DNA of 46,930 bases from an uncultured Bacilli bacterium (GTDB taxonomy: Bacteria; Bacillota_I; Bacilli_A; RF39; UBA660), in contig CANRCC010000011.1 of assembly GCA_947629025.1 (NCBI GenBank), forward strand, positions 1 through 46,930, read 5' to 3'. Shown here piece by piece: positions 33,257-39,188 of the stretch. The notes beneath the pieces are model-generated. The model was not told where the DNA came from. It did not search any database and worked only from the letters and a program-made list of their open reading frames with translations. The first letter of the stretch is position 1. Each line of letters opens with the position of its first letter. Made by a program: the position numbers and the translations under genes.

Positions 33257-33344
33257 TTTATAATATATGACAAAAAAGTAACACTTTAATTTTTAAAATA
33301 TTTATTTATTAATATTAATATACTACATTAGGAGTGTGATTTTT

Positions 33345-34271
33345 TTGAATATAGTAGATAAAGAATTCTTTGATTTGATTAATGAAATAAAATCATTAAG
33401 TGAAAAAGAATTATATTATCAAATAAGAAAAAACTTTGATAAAGTTCCTAATGAAATTAAAAAAAACTGTATGGACTTTTTTAATAGTTTTAATTATTGG
33501 GGAACTTTAGATATAGATAAAAATATATATGAGGAAATAGAGTTAAAAGAAAAAACATTATATAATAATATAGATGATTTTGTATGGGTATATAATCATT
33601 TAAGTGATTATAGATCTAAAAAAACGTTATATTCTATATTAAGTAATTGGTATAGATATGATTTTATTAATACACAAAAAACAAAGGAATATATGTATGA
33701 TGATTATTTTGATTTAGATATAGTAAAATGTAATAAAGATGAGGTTATAGTAGATTTAGGAGCTTATATTGGTGATACAATAATTTCTTATATGAAAAAT
33801 TATGGTACTGATTGTTATAAAAAAATATATTGTTATGAGATAACTGAAAGTATATTTGAAACATTAAAAAATAATTTAAAAGACTATGATAATATAGAGT
33901 TTAGATTAAAGGGTATTAGTGATTCAAAAGGAATGTTAAAATTAGTTAATAATGATTCTAGTTTATCAGCAAATACACTTAGTGATTGTGATAATGGTGA
34001 TGTATATGTTACTACTCTTGATGATGATATAACTGAAAAAATAACTTTAATAAAAGCTGATATAGAAGGGTTTGAGAAAAAAGCATTATTAGGAGCAAAA
34101 AAACATATTTTAAATGATCATCCTAAACTTTTAATATCAGTTTATCATAATAATGAAGATTTATGGAAAATACCAAAAATGATATATGAATTAAATAATG
34201 ATTATAAATTTTATCTTAGATATAATAGTTCTCCAATTTATCCAACAGAAATAACATTAATCGCAGTTTAA
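33345..34271 (+). CDS. FkbM-family SAM-dependent methyltransferase
   Basis: A 308-aa protein. The C-terminal 190 residues form a Rossmann methyltransferase: VIVDLGAYIGDTIISY (SAM-binding motif I), KIYCYEITESIFETLKNN, and LIKADIEGFEKKALLGAKK, the FkbM hallmark. The N-terminal 110 residues are helical and unassigned. FkbM enzymes O-methylate sugars or polyketides; the substrate here is unknown. AGGAG is 10 nt before TTG 33345, which I prefer; GTG at 33336 is too close to that site. Confidence 0.8.
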   Translation: MNIVDKEFFDLINEIKSLSEKELYYQIRKNFDKVPNEIKKNCMDFFNSFNYWGTLDIDKNIYEEIELKEKTLYNNIDDFVWVYNHLSDYRSKKTLYSILSNWYRYDFINTQKTKEYMYDDYFDLDIVKCNKDEVIVDLGAYIGDTIISYMKNYGTDCYKKIYCYEITESIFETLKNNLKDYDNIEFRLKGISDSKGMLKLVNNDSSLSANTLSDCDNGDVYVTTLDDDITEKITLIKADIEGFEKKALLGAKKHILNDHPKLLISVYHNNEDLWKIPKMIYELNNDYKFYLRYNSSPIYPTEITLIAV

Positions 34272-34302: not shown

Positions 34303-34330
34303 TATAAATATGAAGAGAGTAGGAATTAAT

Positions 34331-35965
34331 GTGAAAGAAAAAAAATCAAATTCATTTGTAAGTAATGTAATAATGTTGATGATTTCTCAAGTAATTATTA
34401 AACTTTTAGGTTTAGTTTATAGACTTGCAATCACAAATGTTAAAGGATTTGGTGATTTAGGTAATGGTTATTATTCAGCAGGATATCAAGTTTATGCGGT
34501 ACTTTTAATATTATCTTCACAAGGTATACCAGGTGCAGTATCAAAACTTGTATCTAATAAAGTAGCACAAGGAAGATATAAAGAAGCACATAGAATATTT
34601 AAAGTTTCACTATTAGTATTTGCTATTATTGGTGGTTTAGCTTCATTATTATTATTCTTATTATCTGGATTTATATCAACTAATATACTTAGTGTACCTG
34701 ATGTAAAATATGTTTTATGGGTTTTATCACCGGCAATATTCTTTGTATGCGTCTCTGCAGTTATAAGAGGATATTTTGCAGGACTAGGTACAATGAAAGC
34801 ATCAAGTATATCACAGGCACTTGAACAATTTTTTAACTGTGTTTTAACTATTACATTTGTTTATTCTTTAGTTGGAAATGAACCATATATAATGGCTGCA
34901 GGTGGTAATTTATCAACAACACTTGCAATATTAATATCATTCTCATATTTATTAATATTTTATAAGAGTAACATAAAAAAATATACAGTTGAGTCAAACG
35001 AAAAGATAGATAAATCTGTATTATCAGTAAGAAGATTATCAAAAATAATAATTTTTACTGCAATACCTCTTACAATTGGTTCAGTTATTTCTGTAGTAAC
35101 AACATTTATAGATACAGTAACTGTTAGTAATTTAATTCAAGTAGCATATAAAGGTATATTAGGAAGTAAAGCTTTACTAGAAAAAGAAGCAATGAGATTA
35201 ACGGGTATTTTATCAAAAGTAGATACACTTGTTAATCTTCCAATAGCAATTAATTTGTCATTTTATTCAGCATTAATACCTGCGATTACATCATCAATAG
35301 CAAAAAAAGACTATAAATCAGCATCAAAGAAAATATCATTTTCATTTTCAACATCACTTCTTATTGCAATACCATGCGCTATTGGATTTATAGTACTTGC
35401 AGATCCAATACTTAGAATGCTTTATCCTAATGCATCAGATGGTTGTCATATACTTCAAATAGCATCTATAACTATGATATTTGTAGCAATTAACCATACA
35501 TTACAAGGTTCATTATTTGGACTTGGAAAAATGTATACTCCAGCACTTGCATTATTATGCGGAAGTACTATAAAAATAATATTGAATTTAATATTAATAA
35601 GAAATCCAAATATAAATATATATGGAGCAGTATTAAGTTCTTTAATATGCCAAATAATAACTTTTTCTATAATATATAAAACACTAAAAAAATCCATTGA
35701 ATTTAAGATTGATATTAAAAATGGAATTATAAAACCATTATTTTCAGGTATTATAATGGGTATTAGTATTATATTACTTTATAAAGTTGTAAATAATATA
35801 ATTGGAAATAGTCTCTCTACAATAATATGTATACTATTTGGTGCAATAGTATATTTAATAGCTGTTGTAGTTTTAAAAGTATTAAGCAAAGATGAAATAA
35901 TATCTCTTCCAATGGGAGATAAAATATATAGAGTATTAGTAAAACTTAAGTTATATAAAGCATAA
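34331..35965 (+). CDS. SpoVB/MurJ-type lipid flippase (MATE/MVF superfamily)
   Basis: About 544 aa with 14 predicted membrane helices, of the polysaccharide-exporter/SpoVB branch of the MOP superfamily. N-terminal SNVIMLMISQVIIKLLGLVYR, the GNGYYSAGYQVYAVLLILSS block and SSQGIPGAVSKLVS are characteristic. Members flip lipid II (MurJ, and SpoVB for spore cortex). Neighbouring alr, murT and gatD support a peptidoglycan precursor role. GTG 34331 with AGGA 7 nt upstream is preferred over ATG 34310, which would sit at the predicted transcript end. Confidence 0.82.
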   Translation: MKEKKSNSFVSNVIMLMISQVIIKLLGLVYRLAITNVKGFGDLGNGYYSAGYQVYAVLLILSSQGIPGAVSKLVSNKVAQGRYKEAHRIFKVSLLVFAIIGGLASLLLFLLSGFISTNILSVPDVKYVLWVLSPAIFFVCVSAVIRGYFAGLGTMKASSISQALEQFFNCVLTITFVYSLVGNEPYIMAAGGNLSTTLAILISFSYLLIFYKSNIKKYTVESNEKIDKSVLSVRRLSKIIIFTAIPLTIGSVISVVTTFIDTVTVSNLIQVAYKGILGSKALLEKEAMRLTGILSKVDTLVNLPIAINLSFYSALIPAITSSIAKKDYKSASKKISFSFSTSLLIAIPCAIGFIVLADPILRMLYPNASDGCHILQIASITMIFVAINHTLQGSLFGLGKMYTPALALLCGSTIKIILNLILIRNPNINIYGAVLSSLICQIITFSIIYKTLKKSIEFKIDIKNGIIKPLFSGIIMGISIILLYKVVNNIIGNSLSTIICILFGAIVYLIAVVVLKVLSKDEIISLPMGDKIYRVLVKLKLYKA

Positions 35966-35977
35966 GGGGGAATAATA

Positions 35978-37063
35978 ATGAATGAACTTATCATAGAAAA
36001 AAAAGATTTATTACATAATATAAAAGAAATAAAATCAAGAGTTAAAACTAATGATTATACATTAATTGCAGTAGTAAAAGGTAATGCTTATGGACTTGGA
36101 ATTTTAGAATTTACTAAATTTTTAATTGAAAATGGATTTAACTTTTTTGCAGTAGCATCTATTGATGAAGCATTAACACTAAGAAAAAATAATATTAAAG
36201 AAAAAATATTATTATTAACACCATATAGTGATGAAAAATCAATAAATTTATTAATTGATAATGATATTACATTAACTATTGATTCAAAAGAATGTTTTGA
36301 TATGATAGAAAAAGTTTCAAAAAAACTAAACAAAAAAGTATGTACCCATATAAAAATAGATACAGGATTATCTAGATATGGATTTGATTATAAGAATATA
36401 AAACCTATAATAGATATTATTAGTAAAAGTAAAAATATAGAATTTGAGGGAATATATTCACATTTTTCAAATTCATTAGCAAGTAATTCATCTTTTAGTA
36501 ATACTCAATATTCTAGATTTATTAAAGTTATAGAACAGTTAAAAAAAGAAAATATAGATTTTAAATTAAAACATATATGTAATTCATCTGGATTTTTTAA
36601 ATACCCAAATATGCATCTAAATGCAGCTAGAATAGGTTCTGCATTTGTAGGACTAGCATCTGGAAATAATTCAAATCTTAAAAAAATAGGTATGTTTCAC
36701 ACTAAAATAGTAAAAATAAAAAATATAAATAAAAATGATTATGTAGGATATGCTAATTCATATAAAGCAAAGAAAAATATGATAGTAGGAATATTGCCTA
36801 CTGGATATTTTGAGGGAATAGGATTATCACTAAAAGATCAAAGATTTAAGTTCTTAAGTAAATTAAAACGAATAGTTTTAGATTTTAAATACCTATTTAA
36901 AAGTGATACTTTTTATATAAATGACTTAAAAGTATTAGGACAAGTTGGTATGCATGATGTTGTAATAGATATAACAAATAAAAATTATAGTGAAAATGAT
37001 GATATATATTTTTATGTAAGACCAGTCTTAATAGATTCAAGTGTAAAAAGGGTATATAAATAG
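35978..37063 (+). CDS. alr: Alanine racemase-like PLP enzyme
   Basis: A 361-aa fold-type III PLP racemase, expected to make D-alanine for peptidoglycan. The PLP-Lys motif VVKGNAYGLGI is at residues 33-43, HIKIDTGLSRYGFD follows, and the second-domain Tyr is kept in VGYANSY. Two normally conserved places differ: GYADG is GYFEGIG, and the C-M-D-Q substrate-site motif reads VGMHDVVID, with His in place of Asp. Activity on another amino acid (such as Ser) is possible. AAGGGGG lies 8 nt upstream. 12 nt after the flippase and 21 nt before murT, so an operon. Confidence 0.82.
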   Translation: MNELIIEKKDLLHNIKEIKSRVKTNDYTLIAVVKGNAYGLGILEFTKFLIENGFNFFAVASIDEALTLRKNNIKEKILLLTPYSDEKSINLLIDNDITLTIDSKECFDMIEKVSKKLNKKVCTHIKIDTGLSRYGFDYKNIKPIIDIISKSKNIEFEGIYSHFSNSLASNSSFSNTQYSRFIKVIEQLKKENIDFKLKHICNSSGFFKYPNMHLNAARIGSAFVGLASGNNSNLKKIGMFHTKIVKIKNINKNDYVGYANSYKAKKNMIVGILPTGYFEGIGLSLKDQRFKFLSKLKRIVLDFKYLFKSDTFYINDLKVLGQVGMHDVVIDITNKNYSENDDIYFYVRPVLIDSSVKRVYK

Positions 37064-37084: not shown

Positions 37085-38452
37085 ATGAGAAAGATATGGT
37101 TTATATTTGTACTTTGGGGTACAAAGTTTGGTTTATTACTTTGCAAGATATTTAGACAAGGCGGTTCAATGATATCTGGTAAAGTAGCAGTTATGTTTCA
37201 AAAGAATTTTGTAAAATATTTTACTGATATAGATTATGATAAAGTAATATTTGTAACAGGAACTAATGGTAAATCTACTACAACTAATCTAATTTATCAC
37301 ACATTAAAAAGTGCAGGTAAATCTGTTTGCACTAATAGTGAGGGTGCCAATATGATGAGCGGAGTAGCAACAACACTGATAAAAAATTCAAGTATATTTG
37401 GTAGATTTAATAAAGAGTTTTTAGTTTTAGAAATAGATGAAAGAAGCTTAAAAAATATATTTAAGGTATTACCTGCTAAAAATTTATGTATTAGTAATTT
37501 ACAAAAAGACCAAGTTCAAAGAAATGGTGATCCAGACTTTATATATCAAATGTTTAAAAATTCTATAAACAAAGATGTAACTTTATTTGTAAATAATGAA
37601 GAACCACGTAGTAGATCATTAGAAGATTATGCAGGTAAGAGTATATATTATAGTATAGAAAAAAATGAGAAAACATTTACAAAAAAAGATTTTTATGATG
37701 TTACAATGCCATGTCCAAAGTGTAATCATAAAATAGAATATGAGTATTATAACATAGAAAATATTGGTAAGTTTAAATGTACTAATTGTGATTATAAGAG
37801 TTTAAAAAAGACAAATGTATTAATTAAAGAAATTGATTATAATAATTATTCATTTAAGTGTGGTAAAGATACATACAAAGTAAACTATATAAATCCATTT
37901 TATATATATAATTATGCACTTACAATTGCAATATGTAAAAAATATGATATTAAATATGAAGATATTCAAAAAGGATTTGAGACATTTGTAAATCCAGCAG
38001 ATAGAAGAGAAGTATATAAATATCATGGTAAGACAATTCATTATTTAAGAATTAAACAAGAAAATCCAGAAACACTTCAAAATGCATTAGATACAATTGC
38101 AAGAGATAAAAATAAAAAAGCAATATGGATGGGATTATATGAAATAAAAGATTTTTATCCTAAATATGCAAATACATTTTATTTCTTTGATTGTGATTTT
38201 AAAAAAGTTGTTAATTCAACTGTTGAAGAATATGTATGTTTTTCTAAAACAGTATGTTATGATACAGCAAATAGAATGATATATGCAGGTGCAAATGAAA
38301 AAAAAGTTAAAGTTTATGATGTAGAAGATGACTTTGATATAATATTTGAAGATTTAGATAAGTTAAAAACAGATAATATCTATGTGATTACAGGTATGAA
38401 ACCATATAATAAAATAAAAACATTTTTTAAAAAAGGTGATAACAATGAGTAA
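37085..38452 (+). CDS. murT: MurT-like Mur ligase family protein, divergent
   Basis: A 455-aa MurT homologue. MurT with GatD normally amidates the D-Glu of lipid II to D-isoGln. Kept: an N-terminal WGTKFGLLLCKIFRQGG segment, P-loop VTGTNGKSTTTNLI (58-71), EGANMMSG, the Zn ribbon CPKC...CTNC, and DUF1727 C-domain elements. Altered: the K-N-P-A-G region reads RIKQENPETLQNA, and the Asp-rich loop that supplies the third catalytic-triad residue in characterised MurT reads LYEIKDFYPKYANTFYFF. The reading frame overlaps gatD by 8 nt. ATP activation may be kept while amide transfer is lost. Confidence 0.85.
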   Translation: MRKIWFIFVLWGTKFGLLLCKIFRQGGSMISGKVAVMFQKNFVKYFTDIDYDKVIFVTGTNGKSTTTNLIYHTLKSAGKSVCTNSEGANMMSGVATTLIKNSSIFGRFNKEFLVLEIDERSLKNIFKVLPAKNLCISNLQKDQVQRNGDPDFIYQMFKNSINKDVTLFVNNEEPRSRSLEDYAGKSIYYSIEKNEKTFTKKDFYDVTMPCPKCNHKIEYEYYNIENIGKFKCTNCDYKSLKKTNVLIKEIDYNNYSFKCGKDTYKVNYINPFYIYNYALTIAICKKYDIKYEDIQKGFETFVNPADRREVYKYHGKTIHYLRIKQENPETLQNALDTIARDKNKKAIWMGLYEIKDFYPKYANTFYFFDCDFKKVVNSTVEEYVCFSKTVCYDTANRMIYAGANEKKVKVYDVEDDFDIIFEDLDKLKTDNIYVITGMKPYNKIKTFFKKGDNNE

Positions 38453-39188
38453 TATAATTAATGTAGCGTGGATGTATCCAGATATATTTAACCTTCATGG
38501 CGAAAGAGGAAATGCAAAGGCATTTGAATTAATATCAAAGAAAATGGGAGTAAAATTAAATATTGATAGAATTGATAATATTGATGAAGAAATAGATTTT
38601 GAAAAGTATGATATTTTATTATTTAATGCTGCAGAATTAAAGACAATAAATGCAGTATTAGATATTTTAAAAAATCAAATAGATAAAATTAAAAAATATA
38701 TATCAGATAATAAAATTATCCTCTTAACTGGTACAACTGGTGCATTATTTGCAGATAAAATAACAAGACTTGATAATTCAACATTTGAGGGATTAAATAT
38801 TTTAAATATGGATGTAAAAGAAAGAAATTCAGTAATAGGTGATGATATATATTATAGAGCAAATAACATGAATATTATTGGTTCACAAATTCAGATGATT
38901 GATATTAATTTAAAAAATACAAAACCATTTGGAAAAATAAAATATGGATATGGAAATAATGGAATGCAAGATGAGGGTGCAAAATATAAAAATGTTATAT
39001 TTACAAATGCATTAGGACCTATACTAGTAAAAAATCCTTGGTTTACAGAATATTTAATTAAAGAAGCATGTAAAAATAAAGGTATAAAGTTAAATAATAA
39101 AAAGATTAAATATGATATAGAAGAAAAGTCTTTTAAAAGTACAAAAGAATTTATAAGTAAAAAAATTGAAGAAGCTAGTAAAAATTAA
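38445..39188 (+). CDS. gatD: GatD-like amidotransferase without catalytic Cys and His
   Basis: A 247-aa class I glutamine-amidotransferase fold, clearly GatD by FNLHGERGNAKAF, the FGYGNN-type motif (KYGYGNNGMQDEGAKYKN) and GPILVKNPWFTEYLIKEA. Compared with Staphylococcus GatD, the nucleophile Cys94 (ICGGYQ) is Thr95 (LLTGTTGA) and His189 (LHGPIL) is Leu190 (ALGPIL). It therefore cannot release ammonia from glutamine by the known mechanism. ATG 38445 has AAAGGTGAT 4 nt upstream within the end of murT. Probably a structural or repurposed partner of the divergent MurT. Confidence 0.87.
   Translation: MSNIINVAWMYPDIFNLHGERGNAKAFELISKKMGVKLNIDRIDNIDEEIDFEKYDILLFNAAELKTINAVLDILKNQIDKIKKYISDNKIILLTGTTGALFADKITRLDNSTFEGLNILNMDVKERNSVIGDDIYYRANNMNIIGSQIQMIDINLKNTKPFGKIKYGYGNNGMQDEGAKYKNVIFTNALGPILVKNPWFTEYLIKEACKNKGIKLNNKKIKYDIEEKSFKSTKEFISKKIEEASKN

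Follow-up and report, generated by a model that had tools for sequence, protein, structure and literature searches.

A clade of MurT-GatD pairs without the glutaminase Cys and His in gut Bacilli, and a tentative role in joining an amino acid to peptidoglycan D-glutamate

What might a MurT-GatD complex do once its glutaminase has been lost? In several pathogens MurT/GatD is essential and a drug target; to our knowledge, it has been treated as glutamine-driven in every case. The question is raised by two adjacent genes in the window, that is, the whole stretch of DNA analyzed (46,930 nucleotides, contig CANRCC010000011.1), which belongs to a Bacilli metagenome-assembled genome (MAG; G000) of 1.12 Mb and 91.5% completeness. 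An earlier note on this DNA took the pair for a complex that had been repurposed rather than left to decay. In Staphylococcus aureus, the glutaminase triad consists of GatD Cys94, GatD His189, and MurT Asp349; C94S abolishes activity and D349N severely lowers it (PMC6113224). In the window pair all three residues are replaced. The two reading frames are intact and adjacent, as previously described, and the gene order in the window genus is flippase, alr, MurT, GatD:

34310..35965, + strand: SpoVB/MurJ-like lipid flippase, upstream of alr (profile matches)
35978..37063, + strand: alanine racemase gene alr, directly upstream of MurT; the sole PF01168 gene found in the genome
37085..38452, + strand: MurT-like ligase of 455 aa, window type (PF08353, 57 bits; PF08245, 40 bits)
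38436..39188, + strand: GatD-like subunit without the glutaminase nucleophile (profile and structure matches)

The likelier start of the GatD-like gene is the ATG at 38445 (247 aa), which is preceded by AAAGGTG and overlaps the murT stop. A Pfam profile search found no PF07685 match in the protein, and its NCBIfam NF045636 score is 73, against an equivalog cut-off of 400. Among solved structures, it is closest to the GatD chains of the complexes from S. aureus and streptococci. The AF2 model (pLDDT 91.5) has a full-length GatD fold, with S. aureus GatD (6h5e) as its best structural match (Z 31.0, rmsd 1.9 over 242 residues). The class I GATase fold is also recovered through HisH (Z 18), PdxT, and others (Z 15-18). 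Within this fold, two catalytic residues are replaced:

38730..38732, + strand: Gly96 (ATG numbering) replacing catalytic Cys94 (family alignment)
39012..39014, + strand: Leu190 (ATG numbering) replacing catalytic His189 (family alignment)

The earlier note was right that Cys is lost and, when numbered from the ATG, that Leu190 stands at His189; the residue at Cys94, however, is Gly96, and the Thr95 that it named sits one position before. The assignment of this column depends on the alignment: pairwise HMMER alignment opens a gap and places Thr there, the gap-free family alignment places Gly, and neither places Cys. Thus, the window GatD lacks both the nucleophile-elbow Cys and the catalytic His of class I GATases. 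We also considered whether Cys and His at shifted positions could rebuild the active site. The sole Cys of the window GatD is unconserved and lies in the C-terminal helix, its sole His (H21, counted from the GTG) belongs to an NLHGE motif, and neither is near the site; furthermore, the GatD of one relative (L025) contains no Cys. No conserved Cys or His near the site substitutes for the lost residues in the window GatD or its relatives, and we reject this possibility. Judged from its sequence, the GatD half is predicted to be unable to work as a glutaminase by the known mechanism.

The MurT half has kept considerably more of its active site. Profile and structure searches place it nearest to MurT in the complexes solved from S. 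aureus and streptococci, although its NCBIfam NF045635 score (156 bits) falls far below the equivalog cut-off of 800. Its AF2 model is weaker than that of GatD (pLDDT 74.4), and the top six structure matches are all MurT of MurT/GatD complexes (Z 23.5-26.6). The following sites were located:

37259..37282, + strand: P-loop GTNGKSTT (G59-T66), intact (MurT sequence comparison)
37343..37351, + strand: GAN motif (G87-N89), with the acceptor-carboxylate Asn retained; equivalent of S. pneumoniae Asn85
37436..37441, + strand: Asp118-Glu119, Mg-binding pair retained; counterparts of S. pneumoniae D112/E113 and S. aureus E108
37712..37789, + strand: zinc ribbon Cys210/213/232/235, intact, with all four cysteines present
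38054..38071, + strand: KQENPE replacing the canonical KNPAG loop; conserved across the window-type subfamily
38171..38173, + strand: Asn363 replacing MurT Asp349, the third triad residue (sequence alignment)

The DQxxR loop and the ATP-binding Asn are likewise retained, and Asn85 is essential in S. pneumoniae MurT (PMC6085368). These sites bear out the earlier description of MurT, in which the third catalytic residue and the K-N-P-A-G stretch had been lost while the P-loop and zinc ribbon remained. The ligase half of the complex is predicted to be competent.

The window pair is not alone in having lost Cys and His; a large clade shares the loss. A GatD-like gene occurs in 63 of 145 genomes of the same taxonomic family. 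We examined 90 distinct MurT-GatD pairs from the class: both residues are absent in 78 and present in 12, and the Cys column is Gly in all 78 of the Cys-less GatDs. In a tree built from MurT and GatD after the motif columns had been left out, the canonical pairs cluster together as a clade (support 99), and a single change accounts for the loss of Cys and His. The Cys-less pairs comprise a main type (54 rows), a second type in which MurT has RDS in place of RDQ (12 rows), and the window type (9 rows; support 100), which sits on a long stem. The earlier note had proposed parallel loss in both subunits. The Asp-to-Asn change in MurT is indeed special to the window subfamily, but the GatD loss is one old event, and Asp349 is kept in most main-type pairs. 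Fixation of a glutaminase-dead clade over dozens of genera of gut Bacilli suggests that the MurT half can use another amine.

Its close relatives are MAGs of Bacilli or Clostridia, some of which came from deer gut. All genomes compared are MAGs or other genomes without names, and gene absences may be assembly gaps. Canonical GatDs with Cys and His were seen in only two genomes of the family (L088 in G045 and L092 in G066); these pairs cluster with those of a different family, a sign of possible replacement or transfer. Different Cys-less types can also share a genome. One member of the window's own genus (G002) carries one pair of each of the three types, and G104 carries one window-type and one main-type pair. 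The three types in G002 are better explained by different substrates than by repeated amidation.

Some relatives have genes for diamino acids in the same operons. In G104, the window-type MurT-GatD is followed, after a gap of 10 bp, by a homologue of ornithine racemase (Orr) and then by an arginase-family gene. The Orr homologue covers 350 of the 351 positions of the ornithine racemase profile and, at 442.7 bits, just misses the cut-off of 480; Orr was found in 1 of 140 family genomes. The second-type pair of G105 lies in a tight operon of EctB (diaminobutyrate transaminase), MurT, GatD, and an alr-type racemase, past which come an M23 hydrolase and a flippase; the second-type pair of G002 is arranged as MurT-GatD-EctB-ATPgrasp_ST. 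Both EctBs score above the TIGR02407 cut-off. Of 140 family genomes sampled, 3 have EctB, and each of these has a Cys-less pair; in G049 the distance between EctB and a second-type pair is 20 kb. The EctB gene of G068 adjoins an ATPgrasp_ST gene. In G159, ATPgrasp_ST and a complete MurT are fused in one 788-aa open reading frame, followed by GatD and a SpoVB-like flippase (L127:7522-9885, G159:C1). None of the Orr, arginase, EctB, or ATPgrasp_ST neighbors was present at ten canonical control loci. The neighbor families were picked after the neighborhoods had been viewed, so these rarity figures are post hoc and are suggestive rather than a pre-planned test.

Linkage of diamino-acid supply genes to the pair was observed in G104, G105, and G002. 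The window genome is not among them, and neither Orr nor EctB was found in it. Diamino-acid genes are missing from the surroundings of most of the 54 main-type pairs, whose neighbors (phenylalanyl-tRNA synthetase and a mix of other genes) offered no hint of function. In seven genomes (L130, L131, L132, L133, L134, L135, and L136), a small conserved divergent gene of 76-99 aa lies upstream of the main-type MurT; the one member tested had no Pfam match.

The genes beside the window pair had been offered as functional evidence. The alr and flippase genes do adjoin it, but they are weaker evidence than implied, since G104 carries its flippase-alr pair on a different contig from its window-type MurT-GatD. 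We also considered the window alr as a dedicated amino-acid supplier, an idea weakened by this separation and by its being the only racemase found in the genome, for which reason it is probably housekeeping. Its C-terminal domain is shortened. Its top HMMER alignment with an Alr of solved structure stops near residue 327, and the segment that usually carries the substrate-gating Tyr (Tyr354 in the Geobacillus enzyme) seems to be absent; the G104 orthologue is similar. An FkbM-type methyltransferase gene (33336-34271) lies directly upstream of the flippase gene.

We tentatively favor a reading in which the window pair works independently of glutamine as a ligase, attaching an amine, probably an amino acid and perhaps a diamino acid, to the alpha-carboxyl of peptidoglycan D-Glu. 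We infer its substrate, nucleophile, and product as follows. The MurT-type ATP-dependent ligase would still activate the D-Glu alpha-carboxyl of the stem peptide, probably in lipid-linked form. Nitrogen would no longer be drawn from glutamine, and GatD would be kept as a non-catalytic subunit needed by MurT. The nucleophile would be an amine supplied from outside, with an amino acid as the likeliest kind. For sister lineages, ornithine (probably D-ornithine) and 2,4-diaminobutyrate (DAB) are the candidates, and either would build a type B interpeptide bridge. A broader proposal, which we hold more loosely still, is that the MurT clade with a dead GatD might supply the missing enzyme that attaches the type B bridge amino acid (D-Orn, DAB, or others) at the alpha-carboxyl of D-Glu; paralogues within a genome would then be specialized by amino acid. 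The operons with ornithine racemase and arginase, or with diaminobutyrate transaminase, make the amino-acid reading directly testable.

The simplest rival is free ammonia, because a dead GatD can still support MurT. Here, D-isoglutamine would still be made on lipid II from free NH3 and GatD would play a structural part, by analogy with mammalian carbamoyl phosphate synthetase I. This would explain triad loss more simply, it is compatible with the intact ligase site of MurT, and the relatives live in the gut, an ammonia-rich habitat. Furthermore, the natural Cys-to-Gly change is that of the S. aureus C94G mutant, which loses glutamine-dependent amidation but keeps NH3-dependent amidation at pH 8.5, and in which MurT still requires GatD (PMC3266927). 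At pH 7.5, however, the S. aureus complex does not use NH3 (PMC3266927). Ammonia use also leaves unexplained why Orr, arginase, EctB, and ATP-grasp genes share operons with some of the pairs and why up to three types are present in one genome. We consider it less likely than the amino-acid reading, but it is the main rival.

Alternatively, the amine could be ligated to a carboxyl other than the D-Glu alpha-carboxyl, for example, that of a position-3 diamino acid or of a non-peptidoglycan lipid-linked polymer. The varied surroundings of main-type pairs, the recurrent SpoVB-like flippases, which could serve another polymer, and the rebuilt C-terminal loops of MurT near ATP are all in keeping with such a shift. 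Against it stand the GAN motif and the Asp-Glu acceptor residues, which are kept in the window type, and the ordinary penicillin-binding protein (PBP) complement of the genome, and we regard this alternative as improbable.

In keeping with the favored reading, the organism is predicted from its gene content to make peptidoglycan: six PBP transpeptidase matches and a MurF-like gene were found. Only two Mur ligase middle domains (MurT and the MurF-like protein) were detected in the MAG despite these six matches, and one PBP match is partial, with an in-frame TGA (G000:C22:3221-3856); the shortfall and the partial match probably reflect MAG gaps and contig ends. The idea of a wall-less organism, prompted by the two Mur ligase domains, was rejected in view of the PBP matches, the MurF-like gene, and the four Mur ligase domains of a same-genus genome.

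With all three triad residues gone, the pair might instead be a remnant, non-enzymatic or decaying, that has persisted by chance or as a scaffold. In pairwise comparisons of window-type genes, dN/dS ranges from 0.10 to 0.34 for MurT and from 0.18 to 0.53 for GatD, well below 1. These low values indicate purifying selection on both genes and hence argue against decay. Frames are also intact over a deep clade, with the Gly invariant and the P-loop intact, and we consider a remnant very unlikely. Repurposing rather than decay, as the earlier note had suggested, is supported by these ratios, by the conserved new motifs and intact ligase residues, by the three paralogous types in one relative, and by the lack of any other MurT or GatD in the window genome. 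Least probable of all is that the pair is a spare and that a canonical amidase elsewhere does the work: a copy could be missed in a MAG of this completeness, but the check suggested earlier found only one MurT_C and one GatD and no canonical second copy, single pairs are usual in relatives, and the family's only two canonical pairs are in genomes without a Cys-less pair.

A search of the open-access literature found no earlier description of a glutaminase-dead MurT/GatD and no named ligase for the D-Glu branch of type B peptidoglycan. The window pair resembles the lipid II isoglutaminyl synthase MurT/GatD of S. aureus and S. pneumoniae in its adjacent genes, both folds, ATP site, zinc ribbon, and acceptor-site residues; it differs in its replaced triad, its changed KNPAG loop, and its scores far below the equivalog cut-offs. 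It shares an identical change at the nucleophile with the laboratory mutant GatD C94G (PMC3266927), whereas here the change is natural and fixed in a clade, the His is also lost, and MurT is changed too. The MurT-like proteins of Methanopyrales and Methanobacteriales (PMC11915815) are also MurT relatives without a working glutaminase; in those orders GatD is absent, while the window GatD is kept with its catalytic residues gone. Should the amine prove to be a diamino acid, the complex would be a ligase for the D-Glu branch by which type B peptidoglycan is defined. In type B (B2) bridge synthesis, D-DAB or D-Orn is ligated to the D-Glu alpha-carboxyl, the site that MurT activates, as in the B2gamma peptidoglycan of Clavibacter, where D-DAB bridges D-Glu to D-Ala (PMC9603630).
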